A stretch of DNA of 64,000 bases from Gemmatimonadaceae bacterium (GTDB lineage Bacteria > Gemmatimonadota > Gemmatimonadetes > Gemmatimonadales > Gemmatimonadaceae), in contig JBBJNV010000008.1 of assembly GCA_037721215.1 (NCBI GenBank), forward strand, positions 1 through 64,000. Direction: 5' to 3'. Position numbers and translations under genes: made by a program. Positions 5,859 to 22,836 of the stretch are shown here, piece after piece (position 1 is the stretch's first letter; the number at the start of each line of letters is the position of its first letter). The notes under the pieces were generated by a model. That model saw nothing but the letters and a program-made list of their open reading frames with translations, did not search any database and had not been told where the DNA came from.

Positions 5859-7514
5859 TTACCGTGCACGCTCCGCGCCATCTTCGACAGTGGCGTGAAA
5901 TGCGGCTGTCAGAATCGCTCCCTGATGCTTCACCTGCACCCATACCCGATAGTTCCCTGGCTTGGGGAATGCATACGGGAACGAGACGATGTTGGACGTG
6001 ACAGAATCGTGGGCCATGTCGGGCATCGCTGCCGCGGCTATTCTCTTGCCAAGGCGGCCCCTGACAGTGTCTCCCGGCTCGCGCATGGCGAACGCCATCT
6101 GGGAAGCCATCGAGATCGTCCCGACCGGATGAAGATGGACGAATACTGAGCCGTCGTCCCGCGCGACGACCGAATGCCCGGGCATCCCCAGATACTGTTC
6201 CAGTTGAGCCGGACCGCCGTCACGGTCAGTTACGGTGAATTGCAACGGGGCCGGCACCCCCGCCAGAATGGGGCCCGGTGGGCGGTTCCATGTCACCGCG
6301 ATACCCCCTGCAAGTGTTGCCGTGGTCGCCTGCTTATCCACCGGGCCGGCGAGCCACGAATCATCCTGACTGGCGCCCGAAGCCGACGCTGCAACTCCCC
6401 CCGCTACCCCGAAAACTCCCGTGGCAGCTGTCTTCGATATGGGTGCGGCCGGGGTCGGAAGATTCAGAGAGCTCACCATCGTCTGGGTAAATCCACTTTC
6501 GTGGACGATATCCGCGAATACCCGGTACTGTCCCGCCGGCAGAGTTGGCAAGTCAGCCAGAAAGCTCACCGAATCGACGGATGACGGATGCAGATGAGCA
6601 AACGCGGAGAGATCGTTGCGAACCAGGAACAGGTGCATGAGCTTGCCGTGGTCCTGCATCAACGGAGTCCACGCGCTGGCCCGATTTCGGCTCAGCCATG
6701 CAGAGTCACCGCGCATCACCCATGGTGAATCGACGATGGCAAGGTGCAGTACGGCTCCGCTGGGGCCAGTCCGAACACTCGCTTGCGATTTGAGCGGCTT
6801 GAACATGCTGTCGACAAACCCTTCATCTTCCGCATTCCACCAGGTCCACCCGCCAAACACCAGTGCGGCAGCGACAACGGTCGTTGCGAGCATGGCATTA
6901 CGGGCGCGTCGATGACTGGCTGTACCCGCTGCTTCACCGGGGGGGAGGGTGCTCTCGCGTACCGCGGCACCCATGATCGTCACGAGTCCGGCAAAGAGGA
7001 GGATGCCCATCGCCGCAAGGCCAATGCCCATTGGAACATCCATCTCCAGCCGGCGCGTTGCCGACGCCACCATTGGAACGACCGCACTACCTCGACCCCT
7101 GGCACCGGTGACCTCGACAGTGACGCTGTTGGATCCACCAGTCATTATCCACAGGTTACCGGCGAACAGTCCGGCTTCGCCCTCTACACGAGGTGCCACC
7201 TCGGGTGGCGGTGCGCCACCAGTTGCGTCGAAACGGTTGGCCTGAACTGTAACGCGCTCGGGCTGATCACCGGCAATGCGTACGAAAACACGGGCCACGC
7301 CCGGAACAACCCCTGCCGGCATAATCTGAACTGTCACCGGGTAGGCACCCGCTTTGCCCTCGAACCACGTGTCAGGACTACCGACATGCGCGGCGGCGAT
7401 CATGTAAAGAAGTGCGACTCCGAAAATCCGGAAAGCTGTCTTCACTCCCGCACCCTCAACGGAAGCGTCAATTCTCGAAACGAAACGCTGAAACATGTAT
7501 GGGAGCCCATACAT
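5859..7514 (-). CDS. Membrane-anchored His/Met-rich protein, unknown family
   Basis: I start the protein at the ATG at 7514, which overlaps the stop of the upstream gene by one base (TAATG), giving 551 residues. A GTG at 7550 is possible but unnecessary. There is an N-terminal membrane segment near residues 25-40, a beta-rich extracytoplasmic domain, two membrane segments near 165-185 and 207-227, and a large C-terminal extracytoplasmic part. The C-terminal part is rich in His and Met: HGKLMHLF, FAHLHP, MPGHSVV, FVHLHP and MPDMAHDS. These patterns resemble YtkA/copper-handling periplasmic modules and suggest metal binding, most likely copper, but that is inference. It is translationally coupled to the polytopic protein encoded just upstream, so the two probably act together. 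Confidence 0.7.
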   Translation of the reverse strand: MYGLPYMFQRFVSRIDASVEGAGVKTAFRIFGVALLYMIAAAHVGSPDTWFEGKAGAYPVTVQIMPAGVVPGVARVFVRIAGDQPERVTVQANRFDATGGAPPPEVAPRVEGEAGLFAGNLWIMTGGSNSVTVEVTGARGRGSAVVPMVASATRRLEMDVPMGIGLAAMGILLFAGLVTIMGAAVRESTLPPGEAAGTASHRRARNAMLATTVVAAALVFGGWTWWNAEDEGFVDSMFKPLKSQASVRTGPSGAVLHLAIVDSPWVMRGDSAWLSRNRASAWTPLMQDHGKLMHLFLVRNDLSAFAHLHPSSVDSVSFLADLPTLPAGQYRVFADIVHESGFTQTMVSSLNLPTPAAPISKTAATGVFGVAGGVAASASGASQDDSWLAGPVDKQATTATLAGGIAVTWNRPPGPILAGVPAPLQFTVTDRDGGPAQLEQYLGMPGHSVVARDDGSVFVHLHPVGTISMASQMAFAMREPGDTVRGRLGKRIAAAAMPDMAHDSVTSNIVSFPYAFPKPGNYRVWVQVKHQGAILTAAFHATVEDGAERAR

Positions 7515-8731
7515 TAGCGCTTGACTCTGGACATGCCCTTGCCCCACCACAGCCCCGCCCGGGAGCCAACGGTAGCGAAGATCGCGGCCATACCCAGACC
7601 TGCAGCGAGCGTTGGAACGCTCAAATTGCCGCGGGCGTCCTTATCGACATTCCAGTATTCGTAACGCCACGGGCCAAGCCGCTCGGTGTAGTCCCACTGA
7701 TCGGCGCCAAATACGAAGTTCCGGGCCGCGGGGGAGAGCATGAACTCAGCCCAGTACCAGTGTATCCCGATCATGACTGCGACGAATGTCACGCCCAGTG
7801 CCGCCGACAGCAGCCAGTCGTGTGTAGCGCCCGCACGGCGCATGAGAATGTCGAATGCGAGGGCGGGAAATACCAGGAGCAGCGGAAACGGGTGTGGCAC
7901 CATGCTCGTGACCGCATTGTAGATCGGAGCGAGCATCGGTTGAGCGGGAAAGAGCTGCAGCGCCCAGATGCTGAGAATGACGATTGCCATGTAGCATGCT
8001 GCGATGCGCGTCGCTGGCCAGCTGAGTCTCGACGATCGCGCGAACGCTACCAGGAACAACGGAAGCACGGCGGCCGTGGCCTTGTAGAAACCAGAGCCGT
8101 GCATCTCATTGGCGAAACCTGCGTCTTCCATGAGCATGATTGTCATCATGACGACGACCACAGCGGCGGAATAGGCGAAAATCATCCCGAGGCGGCTGCG
8201 GTCGCGCTCTGAGGTCGCCCGGTTCTGCGCTGCCAGTGCAAGGAGCATCGCGCCGATTTGAATCCCGAGCATACCCATGAGAAGGATGATGTGCGGCGGG
8301 CTGATAATTTTGACATCCAGCCCGTACGCGTTGTGCCACCAGTTGTCGAACGGCGCCGACGTAATCATCATCACGGTGCCCCAGATGCAGACCCAGATGC
8401 CGAGCGGGGCATGAAAAAACTTCCAGAAACGGACCGACCTGCTCTCCGCTACTCTGTCATTTCCGAAGCTCGTACGGAGCGCGATCCAGGCGCAGCTCAG
8501 TCCTGCAACGACTGCGGCGATCTGCTCGAGCAGGTGGGGGGGCGACCAGAAAGTGTCGCGACCGATGGTGCGGTGCCATGAGATGTCCCAGATCAGTCCA
8601 ACGGCAATGCACGTCGAGGCCGCGACGATGGCGTAGATCGGCCATTCGGCGGCCATCGTCCGGGTTCCCGCGCGGGATGCGGAATCGATTCTGCCCGTAT
8701 GGCCGGGGATTGCGGTGAGCGGCGCTGCCAT
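7514..8731 (-). CDS. Polytopic membrane protein with duplicated WH-G-D-SPPH motif
   Basis: The ATG at 8731, preceded by GGAG, gives 405 residues with roughly nine or ten hydrophobic segments. Two copies of one motif are visible: WDISWHRTIGRDTFWSPPH near residue 48, and DNWWHNAYGLDVKIISPPH near residue 127. The common pattern is D-x2-W-H-x3-G-x-D-x(3,4)-S-P-P-H. The repeated histidines next to membrane segments could bind a metal or haem; this is inference. I do not recognise a named family. It is coupled to the His/Met-rich protein downstream and divergent from the peroxiredoxin gene, with 109 bases between the start codons that must hold both promoters. Confidence 0.75.
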   Translation of the reverse strand: MAAPLTAIPGHTGRIDSASRAGTRTMAAEWPIYAIVAASTCIAVGLIWDISWHRTIGRDTFWSPPHLLEQIAAVVAGLSCAWIALRTSFGNDRVAESRSVRFWKFFHAPLGIWVCIWGTVMMITSAPFDNWWHNAYGLDVKIISPPHIILLMGMLGIQIGAMLLALAAQNRATSERDRSRLGMIFAYSAAVVVVMMTIMLMEDAGFANEMHGSGFYKATAAVLPLFLVAFARSSRLSWPATRIAACYMAIVILSIWALQLFPAQPMLAPIYNAVTSMVPHPFPLLLVFPALAFDILMRRAGATHDWLLSAALGVTFVAVMIGIHWYWAEFMLSPAARNFVFGADQWDYTERLGPWRYEYWNVDKDARGNLSVPTLAAGLGMAAIFATVGSRAGLWWGKGMSRVKR

Positions 8732-8840
8732 CGTTGGAAACTCCGTTGGGTTTGCACTTCGAAAATTCTCGATTGCCCGCTGGCACGAGGCTCGTACCAT
8801 CGGCTATCATACCTTCTCACCCTCCAGCGAACAACGACAA

Positions 8841-9431
8841 ATGATGCATCGGAGTTTCACGATCGGAATGGCGGCCGCCCTTGTCCTGACGGGAATACCG
8901 GCCAGCGCGCAGGCGCCGCGGCAAGTCCCGGCCGCTGCCCTGGTGGTGGGCAGCATGGCTCCCAATTTCTCATTGCCGGGAGCCACGCGATACGGCCTCC
9001 TGCAGAGGCCGTTCATGCTCAGCGACTACCGCGGACAGACTGTAGTGCTGGCATTTTTCTACCAGGCGCGGACAAAGGGCTGAACAGTCCAAATGGAGGC
9101 GTACCGTGATCAGTACGCCACGCTGTTCAACAATGGAAGAAAAGTCGTGGTGGTCGGCATCAGCGTCGACGCAGATACAACTCTCGCATCGTGGGCCCGG
9201 GAGCAGCATTTCCCGATGTTGTTCGCCAGCGACAAGGGGTCGAAGGTGGGCGCGATGTATGATTCGTTCGACGCGAAACGGAACACCGACACGCGGGCTC
9301 TATATGTGATCGATCCGGCCGGAAAGGTTGCTTACGTTACAAAGCCGTTCCGGGTTCTGGCTGCCACCGCCTACACCGAGCTGGGCGCCGTTATCGACAA
9401 GCTGGCACCCGTGCCGGTGGATTCCCTCTAA
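8841..9431 (+). CDS. Exported selenocysteine-containing peroxiredoxin (TGA at 9081 read as Sec81)
   Basis: Read through the TGA at 9081-9083, this is a 196-residue AhpC/BCP-type peroxiredoxin. Two in-frame ATG codons start a signal peptide ending ASA before QAP at about residue 24. The thioredoxin-fold core then follows: VGSMAPNFSLPG, VVLAFFYQARTKG, Sec81, TVQMEAYRDQY, VVVVGISVDAD and TRALYVIDPAGKV. The family motif PxxxTxxC reads YxxxTxxU here, with Thr78 kept and Arg152 at the usual catalytic arginine place. There is no cysteine anywhere, so it would be a one-Sec enzyme reducing hydroperoxides with an external reductant outside the cytoplasm. A hairpin fitting a bacterial SECIS element starts at the TGA. 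It is convergent with a TlpA-like gene, sharing four bases. The alternatives are a nonsense mutation or a sequencing error in a Cys codon. Confidence 0.82.
9081..9129 (+). promoter_or_regulatory. Putative bacterial SECIS element for Sec81
   Basis: The 49 bases from the TGA can fold into two stacked perfect helices. TGAACAG (9081-9087) pairs with CTGTTCA (9123-9129), and GGCGTAC (9098-9104) pairs with GTACGCC (9113-9119). The apical loop is CGTGATCA, with G at its second position followed by T. The loop begins 21 bases after the TGA. Bacterial SECIS elements recognised by SelB are known to sit inside the coding region directly after the UGA, with an apical loop roughly 16-37 bases downstream carrying a G in its first two positions. 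Fold stability was judged by eye and was not computed. Confidence 0.78.
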
Positions 9432-9934
9432 AGCGCTTTTCGAATTGCGGCTTCCAGATTCTGGGAGCCGCCGAGCCCGGTGTAAACGATGTTACCCTTG
9501 CGGTTAACGACGACGACGTACGACGTAGCCGGCACCTCATAAGCGTCAGAAGCGTTGGCGTCGGCATCAAAAAGTATTTCGTGGGTGAGCTTGTTCTTGG
9601 CGACATATGCCTTGAGGCGCGCCGGAGATTGTCGGATCGACACCGCAACACCGATGAACTTGACCTTGCCGGCGTACTTCTTCTGCGCGGCCAGAAGTGC
9701 TGGCTCGAGTTCGTGGCATTGCGGGCACCATGTCGCCCAGAACTCGATAAGCATCGGCGTGCGGCCGACATACGAGCCGAGATCGACCGACTTTCCGTCG
9801 AGAGTTTTGACAATCGCGGCCGGAGCGCGTTTGCCCACCGCGATCCCGATTTCCTGGGCGCTGGCGGAGGTAGTAAAGACAAGAGTCGCCGAAACTGCAA
9901 TCAGGGCGGCGGACATGAGGTTGCTTAGTCGCAT
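9428..9934 (-). CDS. TlpA/ResA-like exported thioredoxin-family protein
   Basis: This 168-residue protein has a signal peptide (residues 1-27, ASA before QEI) and a thioredoxin fold with the CxxC active site FWATWCPQC at Cys70/Cys73. GKRAPAAIVKTLDGKSVDLG precedes it, and the cis-Pro loop EVPATSYVVVVNRKG lies near residue 133. TlpA/ResA-type proteins reduce disulfides or other oxidised thiols outside the cytoplasm, taking electrons from CcdA or DsbD. Its stop shares the four bases CTAA with the stop of the Sec-peroxiredoxin gene on the other strand, and a CcdA-like gene lies 85 bases upstream on the same strand. It is therefore a good candidate electron donor to the peroxiredoxin, which is inference. 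Confidence 0.9.
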   Translation of the reverse strand: MRLSNLMSAALIAVSATLVFTTSASAQEIGIAVGKRAPAAIVKTLDGKSVDLGSYVGRTPMLIEFWATWCPQCHELEPALLAAQKKYAGKVKFIGVAVSIRQSPARLKAYVAKNKLTHEILFDADANASDAYEVPATSYVVVVNRKGNIVYTGLGGSQNLEAAIRKAL

Positions 9935-10019: not shown

Positions 10020-10739
10020 TCATATCAGGAGCAACCCCATCTGCACCAGATAGTATTCCGCGACTCCAATCATGACGAGTGCGAACCCGCGCTTCACCCA
10101 TACCATCCACGCTCCCGCGCGCGGCAGCCTTGTCACCGTCCCACTGAACAACCCGACAGCAACGAGTAGCGCACACATACCGACCGAAAAGCTGAACAGA
10201 TAGACGAACCCAAGTGCTGCCTGTTTCGTCGTCGTGACCCAGGTGAGGACGGCGGCCATCACGGGCGCACCGCATGGAGCCGCGACCAGGCCCGAAACGG
10301 ACCCCATCACGAACGCCCCCGAGAATCGGCCAGCCGTTCCCGCGCTCGATGCACGCGTGACGAGCGACGCAGGGAGTCGTACGGGTAGAACGTCGAGCAT
10401 CGACAGGGCCGCGATCATCAACAGATTCGCCATCGCAAAATAGAACCACGGGTTGGTGCTTATCGAACCAAACATCGTGCCGGTAAGGCCAGCGACGAGC
10501 CCTAGCGAAGCATATACAAGCGCCAGTCCCATGACATAGGCAAAAGTCAGGAGCGGCGTCCTCCATCGCGGCGGCTTCTCCTCACCTACCGTCTGCCCGC
10601 CGACAATGGCGGCCGTTATCGGAATCATTGGATAGATGCAGGGCGTCAGGCTCGTCAACACGCCCGCAACGAAAAGAATGCCCATCGCAATCAACGGATT
10701 GGATGACAGTTGTGTCGAAATCGAGGAGAAGTCCATCAT
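10020..10739 (-). CDS. CcdA/DsbD-type transmembrane electron carrier
   Basis: The ATG at 10739 gives 239 residues with six or more membrane helices. Both conserved redox cysteines of the CcdA/DsbD membrane domain are present: Cys34 in LTPCIYPMIPITAAIVGG and Cys155 in VAAPCGAPVMAAVL. The first motif reads more like DsbD than short CcdA. Such proteins carry electrons from cytoplasmic thioredoxin through the inner membrane to extracytoplasmic thioredoxin-like partners. The TlpA-like gene follows on the same strand and is the obvious partner. No separate DsbD alpha or gamma domain is fused here. Confidence 0.9.
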   Translation of the reverse strand: MMDFSSISTQLSSNPLIAMGILFVAGVLTSLTPCIYPMIPITAAIVGGQTVGEEKPPRWRTPLLTFAYVMGLALVYASLGLVAGLTGTMFGSISTNPWFYFAMANLLMIAALSMLDVLPVRLPASLVTRASSAGTAGRFSGAFVMGSVSGLVAAPCGAPVMAAVLTWVTTTKQAALGFVYLFSFSVGMCALLVAVGLFSGTVTRLPRAGAWMVWVKRGFALVMIGVAEYYLVQMGLLLI

Positions 10740-10875
10740 GGTAAGGTAGTGAGTAAGGCGGATTATGCGTGCTCGTCGGGTTTTGACGGCCCGGGGACGG
10801 CCCCCGCAAAGGTGTAGATTTGTTCGCTTGAAGCGGGGTGCTCGACCACGGCACCGCAACCTCCTCGAAACAACG

Positions 10876-13104
10876 ATGACAGCAGTCAACTCAAGATCGG
10901 CCGCAACGCTTTCTCATTCAGACACCGGGGCGGGCTACAAGCCCTCTTATGCCGCGGCGGGAATCGCGGCGCTGGCGGTGTTCGTACTCTACTTCATCAC
11001 GATTGCGCCTTCCACGGCGATGTGGGATACCGGCGAATACATGGCCGCCGCGAAGGTGCTCGGATTGCCGCATCCCCCCGGCAACCCCTTTTTCATCTTG
11101 CTGGCGAATGTGTTCGGCCAGCTTCCCCTTCCCGGCAGCTACGCGCAGCAGATCAATACGATGGCCGCGCTTGCCAGCGCCTTGTCCGCTGGATTCTGGT
11201 TTCTCATAACCGAGCGAATTCTTTCAGGATGGATTGGCAACGGGTGGCAACGCCTGCTCGGCGCCGCTCTTGCGACTTTGATCGGCGCAACGGCGTTCAC
11301 CGTCTGGAACCAGAGCGTTGTAAACGAGAAGGTCTACACCATCTCGCTCTTTTTCTTCACTGCCGTCTCGTGGCTGATGATTTCGTGGACCGACGATCCC
11401 GATGGTCCCAAAGCCAACCGCCGGCTCATACTGGTCGCCTTCCTGCTTGGCCTTGGCTATGCCAATCACCCTGCCGGATTTCTTGCGGCACCCGCAGTGG
11501 GCGTGGCTATTCTCGTGCGCCGCTGGCAAACTTTTCTGAACTGGCGTTTACTTACGAAGGGACTGCTGGTGATGGCATTGGGCCTCACGCCGTTCATCTA
11601 CCTGCCGATTCGGTCAGCTTACTTTCCGGCAATCAACGAAGGCGAGACAACGGCCTGCGTCACTGAAATAAGCGCCGCCTGCACGTTCAGTGAGCTCACC
11701 AAAAAACGCGTGATGGATAACATCAACCGCGAGCAGTACGGCAAAAAACTCGAACGCGGCGCCCCGTTTACTGCCCAGGTCGGCATGTGGTGGCTCTATT
11801 TCAAGTGGCAGTGGTTGCGCGATGCGCACGGAGAAAGCGCGGCACTCCAGGCGATACTGGCAGTCGTCTTTCTGTCTCTTGGCTTGATAGGAGGATATGT
11901 CCACTGGACGCACGACCGCCGCACGTTCTGGTATTTCGGGCCGCTGATGTTCACACTGACGCTGGCGCTCATCTACTACATGAACTTCAAGTATGGATGG
12001 TCGCAGTCGCCCGAGCTGGGTGACGACGTTGCTCGCGAGGTGCGAGACCGGGATTACTTCTACATCTGGAGCTACTCGGCGTGGGGCGTGTGGGCTGCGC
12101 TCGGCCTTGTGTATATCTGGCAATCCGTCGCTCAGATACTTGACGGGTCGAGCGGCGCGAAAGCGGATGGCGCCGGTTACGCCAGCCGTCGCGGCTGGCT
12201 GCTCGCCACACCTCTCCTGCTGATCGCGTGCGCGCCTCTCGTCGGCAACTGGAAGGCGGCATCGCACCGCGGTGACACCTTCACGGCAAAGTGGGGAGCA
12301 GATATGCTGAACTCCGTCGAGCCGTACGGCATTCTCATCACCAACGGAGACAACGACACCTTCCCCCTCTGGTATGCGCAGGAAGTGGAAGGCGTGCGCC
12401 AGGACGTACTGGTACTGGTGACTTCATATCTGAACACCGACTGGTTCGTTCGGCAAATGATTCGCCGGCCGGTGCGTGAATATGACGCGGCCAAAGGCCC
12501 AGCAATTTATCGGGACAAGCAATGGCCGAAGCCGACCAGATCGCCGCTGGCAATGAGCTTCGCCGAAGCAGACGCGCTGCCCGAATATCTCGAGCTCCGC
12601 GAACCACAGCTGTTCAAGCAGCGGGATCTCGTCGCAACCATTCAGCCGGGCTATCTGACCCGCGATCAGATCGTCACGCTGCGACTGATCAAGGATTCAT
12701 ACCCCGAGCGAGCGATTTTCTTCTCTACCGGCGGTTACGGCAAAACGCTGGGTCTCGCAAATCATTCATTGCGACAGGGACTCGTCGAGAAGCTCGTCGA
12801 GAAACCAATCGTGCCCGGCCGCGATACGGTGCAGGTTGGCGACGGCTTTCTCGACGTAAACCGCTCCTACGCTCTCTGGACACAGGTCTACAAGGGACCA
12901 CAGGAACTCATTGACGAAGGCGACTGGGTTGACCGTCCATCGTTCGGTATACCGTATACCTATACGGTGACCGGATATCTCGTGGCCGAAGCACTGAGAA
13001 TACAGGGTCGAGAAGCCCTTGGCGTGCCGATCATGAACACCGTCAAGGGCATGGCTCAGGCCGCCAGGATTACCGACGTCCTCGGCGCGCTTTCTGACCG
13101 CTAA
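10876..13104 (+). CDS. DUF2723 (TMEM260-like) membrane glycosyltransferase
   Basis: I use the ATG at 10876; an upstream ATG at 10765 would add a 37-residue Arg-rich leader. The 742-residue protein has about ten N-terminal membrane helices and a soluble C-terminal domain. The first loop contains the GT-C-type acidic motif WDTGEYMAAAKVLGL followed by HPPGNPFF, which is diagnostic of DUF2723. Eukaryotic TMEM260 of this family is a protein O-mannosyltransferase. Bacterial members are common in Bacteroidota and Gemmatimonadota and are thought to glycosylate exported proteins or envelope glycans from a lipid-linked sugar. The C-terminal segment with YGILITNGDNDTFPLWYAQE is also typical. Its stop overlaps the stop of the convergent HEAT-repeat gene by four bases. 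Confidence 0.9.
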   Translation: MTAVNSRSAATLSHSDTGAGYKPSYAAAGIAALAVFVLYFITIAPSTAMWDTGEYMAAAKVLGLPHPPGNPFFILLANVFGQLPLPGSYAQQINTMAALASALSAGFWFLITERILSGWIGNGWQRLLGAALATLIGATAFTVWNQSVVNEKVYTISLFFFTAVSWLMISWTDDPDGPKANRRLILVAFLLGLGYANHPAGFLAAPAVGVAILVRRWQTFLNWRLLTKGLLVMALGLTPFIYLPIRSAYFPAINEGETTACVTEISAACTFSELTKKRVMDNINREQYGKKLERGAPFTAQVGMWWLYFKWQWLRDAHGESAALQAILAVVFLSLGLIGGYVHWTHDRRTFWYFGPLMFTLTLALIYYMNFKYGWSQSPELGDDVAREVRDRDYFYIWSYSAWGVWAALGLVYIWQSVAQILDGSSGAKADGAGYASRRGWLLATPLLLIACAPLVGNWKAASHRGDTFTAKWGADMLNSVEPYGILITNGDNDTFPLWYAQEVEGVRQDVLVLVTSYLNTDWFVRQMIRRPVREYDAAKGPAIYRDKQWPKPTRSPLAMSFAEADALPEYLELREPQLFKQRDLVATIQPGYLTRDQIVTLRLIKDSYPERAIFFSTGGYGKTLGLANHSLRQGLVEKLVEKPIVPGRDTVQVGDGFLDVNRSYALWTQVYKGPQELIDEGDWVDRPSFGIPYTYTVTGYLVAEALRIQGREALGVPIMNTVKGMAQAARITDVLGALSDR

Positions 13105-21394: not shown

Positions 21395-22836
21395 CAGCCT
21401 CCCTTCTTCACTGTGAGCTTTGCGGTGGCATCGGCCTGCGCGCGGAGCAGGATTGCGCTTCGCTGTGCGTTGACGGCGAGGCCGTGAACGGCTTTGACGT
21501 CCGCCGTGAGACGCACGCCTGGTGCAAGGTCGCGGTTCAGTCCTTTCGCCAGCTGTTCACGTCCCTTCTGCATAACGCTGCCAACTGACCATCTGGCGCG
21601 CTGGCGAAAGAATTCGCGCACGTCGTTGTGCTTTACCCATTCCAGGCCACTTACCAGCGCATTTACCGATCCGACGTCGTAGTCGAGATCGGGCACGAAC
21701 AGCTCATTCGTGCTCGCGTCGTAGCGAGGGGTGCCCACGAAATAGATCCTGCCTTGCGCGGCGCCCTTGAAGCGAAGCTCGAGAGCGAGCTTGCCCCCGC
21801 CAATGCCGAACAATCGAACGTGACTGACCTCGAGCGTCTGCCCGGCGCGGTCGATTTTTTTCCCTTTGAGTTTGTCCTCGAGCAGGCGCGACGCAATGTC
21901 ATATCCTATCACGCCATCGAGCAGAATGTGCAAGCCGTCGCCGACCGCGGCTGGATACAGCGGCGGCAACGGCGTTTCCAGCGGCGCCGGGCGAGACCCG
22001 GTCACTATCCGGGGAGAGGCCGAGAAGCCCAGCGCAGTAACGAGCGTTCGCCGCGTGCCCACGCTCTCGCCCATTCGCACCGCGGATGGATTGATCTGTA
22101 GCCACACGCTGTCGGTGAGCGGAATGGGACGCTGGAGTAGATGCCACCACTCCTGAAAGCGTGGGCGAATGTCGAGCGCAGCGATTTTCTGGTCGATCAG
22201 CGAGCGCTTGCCGATCACCGCATTTCGCGCGGCTTCGATCACGCGTCCGGTGACATCGATGTTGAATACCGTCACTCGGCACTGGTCGCGGCGCGTATCG
22301 CTGAATGGTGTGACATCTCCCACGCGCGTCCGACCCCGCAGCTTCCACTCGGGCGTAATGCGGAGCGCCGTCGCTATCTGAATCCGCGCTCGTGGTTTCG
22401 GTTGATCGATACCGCAGGACCCGCTTACCTCCGGCGCGAGCGGCGCATCGTACCAGCCCTTGCCTTGATAGTTGATTACCGCGGTCAGGTTGGCGGTCTG
22501 CCCGTCGAGCGAGACCTTGAACGGCTCACGTATTGCCTCGAATGCAACACGCATTCTTTTGTTTGATAACTGTCGTCTGTCATCGATATCACCAAACGTT
22601 TTCGGTACCGCTCTTTCGAGCGCTTCGACCACGGGAGACAGGTCGTAGGTCAGGGGGATATCGAGAGTCGATGTCGGCAACGCCGGGAGGGTATCGATGT
22701 CCGCCGACATCGCCGGGGGCGGAGCGTCGACATCGAGGGAGCCGTCGCATGCACCAATTGCCAGCAGCATGAGAGCAGCTGCCAGCGACATCGCAGCAAC
22801 CGGGCGTGGCCCGGCACCACGAAACACGGAAGTCAT
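21394..22836 (-). CDS. DUF4403 family lipoprotein
   Basis: The ATG at 22836 gives 480 residues; a TTG at 22860 is a weaker alternative. Residues 1-30 are a lipoprotein signal with lipobox LAIGAC (Cys30). The mature protein is beta-rich, with two repeated-looking halves (LSPVVEALERAVPKTFG; DYDVGSVNALVSGLEWV) as in DUF4403 proteins. This family is of unknown function and is common in Bacteroidota and related envelopes. The extended beta structure with amphipathic character suggests lipid handling at a membrane, though I have no direct evidence. It is translationally coupled to the permease downstream. Confidence 0.8.
   Translation of the reverse strand: MTSVFRGAGPRPVAAMSLAAALMLLAIGACDGSLDVDAPPPAMSADIDTLPALPTSTLDIPLTYDLSPVVEALERAVPKTFGDIDDRRQLSNKRMRVAFEAIREPFKVSLDGQTANLTAVINYQGKGWYDAPLAPEVSGSCGIDQPKPRARIQIATALRITPEWKLRGRTRVGDVTPFSDTRRDQCRVTVFNIDVTGRVIEAARNAVIGKRSLIDQKIAALDIRPRFQEWWHLLQRPIPLTDSVWLQINPSAVRMGESVGTRRTLVTALGFSASPRIVTGSRPAPLETPLPPLYPAAVGDGLHILLDGVIGYDIASRLLEDKLKGKKIDRAGQTLEVSHVRLFGIGGGKLALELRFKGAAQGRIYFVGTPRYDASTNELFVPDLDYDVGSVNALVSGLEWVKHNDVREFFRQRARWSVGSVMQKGREQLAKGLNRDLAPGVRLTADVKAVHGLAVNAQRSAILLRAQADATAKLTVKKGG

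Follow-up and report, generated by a model that had tools for sequence, protein, structure and literature searches.

A putative exported, cysteine-free selenocysteine peroxiredoxin conserved across Gemmatimonadota

The locus and the predicted gene product

The window considered here, i.e., the whole analyzed stretch of 64,000 nucleotides from a Gemmatimonadaceae bacterium, harbors a single forward-strand frame of 196 codons broken only by one in-frame TGA. Downstream, a ResA-like and a CcdA-like gene are arranged tail-to-tail with it (Table 1). A first-pass annotation, made from the letters alone, had delimited the frame, the TGA and an RNA hairpin next to it, and all of them were found at the same coordinates. 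Its description of a product lacking Cys, with selenocysteine (Sec) 81 as the only redox residue, was likewise borne out by the translation: the read-through product comprises 196 residues with zero Cys and Sec at position 81.

Table 1. Features of the Sec-peroxiredoxin locus (positions in the window)
Feature	Position	Strand	Remarks
Predicted Sec-peroxiredoxin gene	8841–9431	+	Stop TAA 9429–9431; start ATG at 8841 or 8844
Predicted signal peptide MMHRSFTIGMAAALVLTGIPASA	8841–8909	+	Likely cleavage after ASA (then QA); read from sequence
TGA, predicted Sec81, peroxidatic position	9081–9083	+	Same-column TGA in 98 distinct homologs, Cys in 27
Conserved SECIS apical hairpin	9098–9119	+	Stem 9098–9104/9113–9119; loop 9105–9112
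Lower helix	9081–9129	+	9081–9087/9123–9129; possible in this sequence, not conserved
ResA/TlpA-like exported thioredoxin (WCPQC)	9428–9934	-	Candidate reductant; neighbor in 51/110 loci
CcdA-like membrane electron transporter (DsbD_TM, PF02683)	10020–10889	-	Candidate electron source; neighbor in 50/110 loci

Judging by its N-terminus, the peroxiredoxin is probably exported. Export-like N-termini recur in the Sec homologs, with a hydrophobic run in 89 and an AxA-like motif in 96 of the 98 according to a heuristic reading.

Searches of 60 relatives and of GTDB contigs returned many matches carrying the TGA in the same column; the best 80 loci of the GTDB contig scan were nearly all titled Gemmatimonadota. 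The resulting set of 127 distinct homologous stretches included 98 with TGA and 27 with TGC or TGT, so that the column is Sec or Cys throughout, bar two distant paralogs with GCC and GAC. Homologs at E ≤ 1e-25 were present in 235 of the 298 Gemmatimonadota genomes surveyed; the top-scoring matches listed for this survey read, for the most part, through one TGA. Additional TAG, TAA or second TGA codons in some of these matches turned out to be ordinary terminal stops, as read in four genomes. A plasmid search gave distant homologs only (at most 41.5% identity among the matches listed). Overall, many relatives throughout Gemmatimonadota have retained the gene together with its internal TGA and its RNA signal. 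The homolog tree requires at least five exchanges between Sec and Cys; many of its deep forks are weak.

Peroxiredoxin fold and active site

The translation matches the AhpC-TSA profile (PF00578) over residues 36–165 (E = 6e-26; 91 bits vs. a cut-off of 26), as do all 42 aligned family members. This match and the one to the Redoxin profile (PF08534; E = 7e-16) both extend across the TGA. The initial reading of an export signal followed by a complete peroxiredoxin within a single frame stands. So does the claim of coding similarity beyond the TGA, which is corroborated by the Pfam matches and by dN/dS of 0.07–0.15 in the downstream part where estimable. The AlphaFold2 model built with 42 homologs reached a pLDDT of 89, and its best fold matches in the PDB were peroxiredoxins, Bcp4 (3hjp) being the first.

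The annotated position of the TGA at the peroxidatic site, in the form YxxxTxxU, agrees with the alignment: the TGA aligns with the peroxidatic Cys of solved peroxiredoxins, e.g., 2ywn and 2cx3, and the same column holds Sec or Cys in the homologs. From the motif comprising PxxxT(S)xxC/U and a catalytic Arg, the protein possesses Thr, Sec and Arg152, with Tyr instead of Pro. The Thr at position −3 from Sec is found in 95 of the 98 Sec forms (Ser in the remaining 3), and Arg152 shows no variation among the aligned sequences. Cys is entirely absent from 88 of the 98 Sec proteins. Within the aligned region the PxxxT/SxxC motif is complete in the Cys homologs, with Pro at position −7 in 27/27; the Sec forms have another residue there, mostly Phe or Tyr, in 74 cases out of 98 (here Tyr74, window positions 9060–9062). 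The replacement of Pro in most Sec forms is a departure, because the PxxxTxxU motif was described as highly conserved in Sec peroxiredoxins in a review (PMC13188914).

The replaced Pro (Tyr here, non-Pro in three-quarters of the Sec forms), together with the lack of a resolving Cys and the presence of ResA and CcdA next door, would also fit a Sec redox protein that adopts the peroxiredoxin fold but is not a peroxidase, being engaged, e.g., in envelope thiol–disulfide or methionine sulfoxide chemistry. However, Thr is retained at −3, Arg152 does not vary, the Cys homologs keep the full motif and the fold itself matches peroxiredoxins, and a function of this kind is regarded as unlikely. The preferred assignment is a peroxidase, as suggested by the neighborhood and by precedent.

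Decoding of the internal TGA

The RNA segment 9075–9135 folds at −20.8 kcal/mol, and only 3 of 200 dinucleotide shuffles folded as well (z −2.63). Its apical part is a conserved element: the offset from the TGA is identical in the 98 Sec stretches, the inner six stem pairs are possible in 98/98 of them and the outermost pair in 84/98 (it is A–A in 13). The outermost pair consists of two wobble positions and occurs as G–C, C–G, T–A and A–T; it forms in 58 of 72 distinct sequences vs. 29.5 expected, a number reached in 0 of 5000 shuffles, which ignore relatedness. The 8-nt loop with G in the second place, CGUGAUCA, had been pointed out previously and recurs across the 98 distinct Sec homologs; six of its eight positions are invariant and the remaining two are T in 96/98. 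Of the two helices proposed for the SECIS, the apical one thus held up, whereas the lower one, though it can form here, is not a conserved element, since no more than 5 of the 98 homologs could form all seven of its pairs.

Constraint on this segment is also evident in codon usage. The synonymous choice is nearly frozen at codons 87–92 (GCG TAC CGT GAT CAG TAC; normalized entropy 0.00–0.14), and the normalized codon entropy of codons 85–92 is 0.15 vs. a mean of 0.69 elsewhere, where conserved residues vary in their codons. In the Cys homologs, the codons differ and the stem is poorly preserved.

The genome, a draft assembly of 45 contigs (96.6% complete), encodes the products of selA, selB, selC and selD, the four genes whose search had been suggested: SelA (527 bits), SelB (341 bits, cut-off 242), a tRNA-Sec (70.5 bits, anticodon TCA, ARAGORN) and SelD (362 bits). 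The latter has its own in-frame TGA in the stretch CAGUASKMGPGD, which is the active site of SelD. SelD (L017:1336–2832, G000:C32) therefore appears to be a selenoprotein itself; its gene sits directly upstream of the tRNA-Sec gene.

A read-through frame alone is silent on which residue goes in, and a near-cognate tRNA or a changed code might, without selenium, decode the UGA as Cys or Trp. General recoding is contradicted by the fact that TGA is the ordinary stop of 16 of the 35 long open reading frames in the window, which rules out a changed genetic code. Insertion of another amino acid is further opposed by the specificity of the SECIS-like hairpin to the TGA genes and by the distribution of the Sec form, which is confined to genomes where a tRNA-Sec or SelB was found. 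In a panel of 61 genomes, all 39 with the Sec form possess at least one of these markers (tRNA-Sec in 36, SelB above the cut-off in 34); a tRNA-Sec went undetected in three and no SelB scored above the cut-off in five, but in none of them are both missing. Among the 14 genomes with only non-Sec forms, six have a tRNA-Sec or SelB and eight have neither (39/39 vs. 6/14; Fisher p = 3e-6, relatedness not corrected). The ten panel genomes with neither marker comprise these eight, all of which carry Cys in the homolog, and two without a close homolog. Decoding as Cys or Trp is therefore considered very improbable.

The idea of a pseudogene with a disabling TGA, or of a misread TGC or TGT, draws on the draft state of the assembly and on the single stop in an otherwise intact frame, but its probability is negligible: the TGA recurs in 98 distinct homologous stretches, the sequence beyond it is under purifying selection, the SECIS codons are frozen and the genome has a complete Sec machinery; in place of random stops without a hairpin, many sister genomes conserve both the TGA and the hairpin, which effectively excludes sequencing error or decay.

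Overall, Sec coding, the SECIS element, the peroxiredoxin fold and the absence of a resolving Cys are well supported by the sequence evidence. On these grounds, it is highly probable that the gene encodes an exported Sec peroxiredoxin, and its product is almost certainly an exported antioxidant enzyme with Sec as the sole reactive residue. When the window was scanned for further frames read through a single TGA, no second convincing candidate emerged: two such frames, at 22154 (+) and 53383 (−), passed a crude GC3 filter, and their hairpins looked unconvincing.

Relation to known systems and a possible reductant

Peroxiredoxins containing Sec are known, e.g., PrxU of Eubacterium acidaminophilum (Sohling et al. 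2001, as cited in PMC13188914), and have been recorded in 78 organisms (PMC5029168). The protein described here shares with the PrxU family (NF040737) the AhpC/TSA fold and Sec replacing the peroxidatic Cys in TxxU; unlike that family, it features a predicted signal peptide, no Cys and Tyr for the motif Pro. With 53 bits against a cut-off of 270, it falls outside the PrxU equivalog; the other NCBIfam models returned likewise score below their respective cut-offs. The closest solved folds and sequences are those of Bcp/PrxQ-type peroxiredoxins (Bcp4 3hjp; 2ywn; 2cx3), from which it differs in having Sec instead of Cys and in its predicted export, with ca. 21–27% identity among the fold matches listed. 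Thus, it is classified as a peroxiredoxin by fold and profile and as a selenoprotein by sequence tests, and not as a PrxU equivalog. Few openly accessible papers on selenocysteine or selenoproteins in Gemmatimonadota were found and, judging from titles and abstracts, none of them describes Sec peroxiredoxins of this phylum, the present family included. What is new is an apparently exported form devoid of Cys that is spread throughout Gemmatimonadota, has lost the motif Pro and repeatedly lies near ccdA and resA; Sec peroxiredoxins are thereby extended to this phylum. Since standard gene callers stop at TGA, a widespread envelope antioxidant of the phylum is probably annotated as fragments.

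The ResA-like and CcdA-like genes recur in the same order and orientation in 51 and 50 of the 110 loci, respectively, some of which are the same genomes taken from two collections; in the other half or so, some loci being short, these neighbors were not found. Being convergent with the peroxiredoxin gene, they do not form one operon with it, yet their presence in about half of the loci suggests a candidate envelope reductant route. A precedent is the Caulobacter relay in which the membrane transporter ScsB passes electrons to a TlpA-like thioredoxin and on to the envelope peroxiredoxin PprX (Cho et al. 2012, as summarized in PMC5403849). What the two systems share is a peroxiredoxin of the envelope (putatively so here) next to a TlpA-like thioredoxin and a membrane transporter of the DsbD family, seen in the present case as a conserved neighborhood; the differences are CcdA-like instead of ScsB and Sec instead of Cys.

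A mechanism consistent with these data would start with SelB carrying Sec-tRNA-Sec and binding the hairpin just past the UGA, so that Sec is inserted at residue 81. The peroxiredoxin would then be exported via the general secretory pathway, and in the envelope its selenolate may attack H2O2 or an organic peroxide to yield a selenenic acid. Because the protein has no Cys to form a disulfide, the oxidized Sec enzyme would have to be reset by an external thiol, for which the neighboring relay from CcdA to the ResA/TlpA-like protein is the best candidate; the chance that this relay recycles the Sec enzyme is deemed about even. Tentatively, and with somewhat less than even probability, the family as a whole can be envisaged as a phylum-wide exported selenoperoxidase of Gemmatimonadota, fed by CcdA and ResA/TlpA, with an active site remodeled around Sec (Pro to Phe/Tyr at −7) and serving envelope defense without a resolving Cys.

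Upstream of the peroxiredoxin gene, two long proteins are encoded at 7514–8800 (−) and 5859–7550 (−) of the window; Pfam gave no hit for either at E 0.001, and their homologs lie near the peroxiredoxin gene in only a few relatives.

Natural Sec/Cys pairs, some adjoining in one genome, offer a test of why Sec has been kept, and also of whether the change of Pro to an aromatic residue is an adaptation to Sec. Sec and Cys paralogs adjoin or lie near each other in one genome at locus L133 (G036:C19:41500–43800) and, further, at L084, L094, L100, L101, L102 and L109; two Cys copies occur at L122 and L125.
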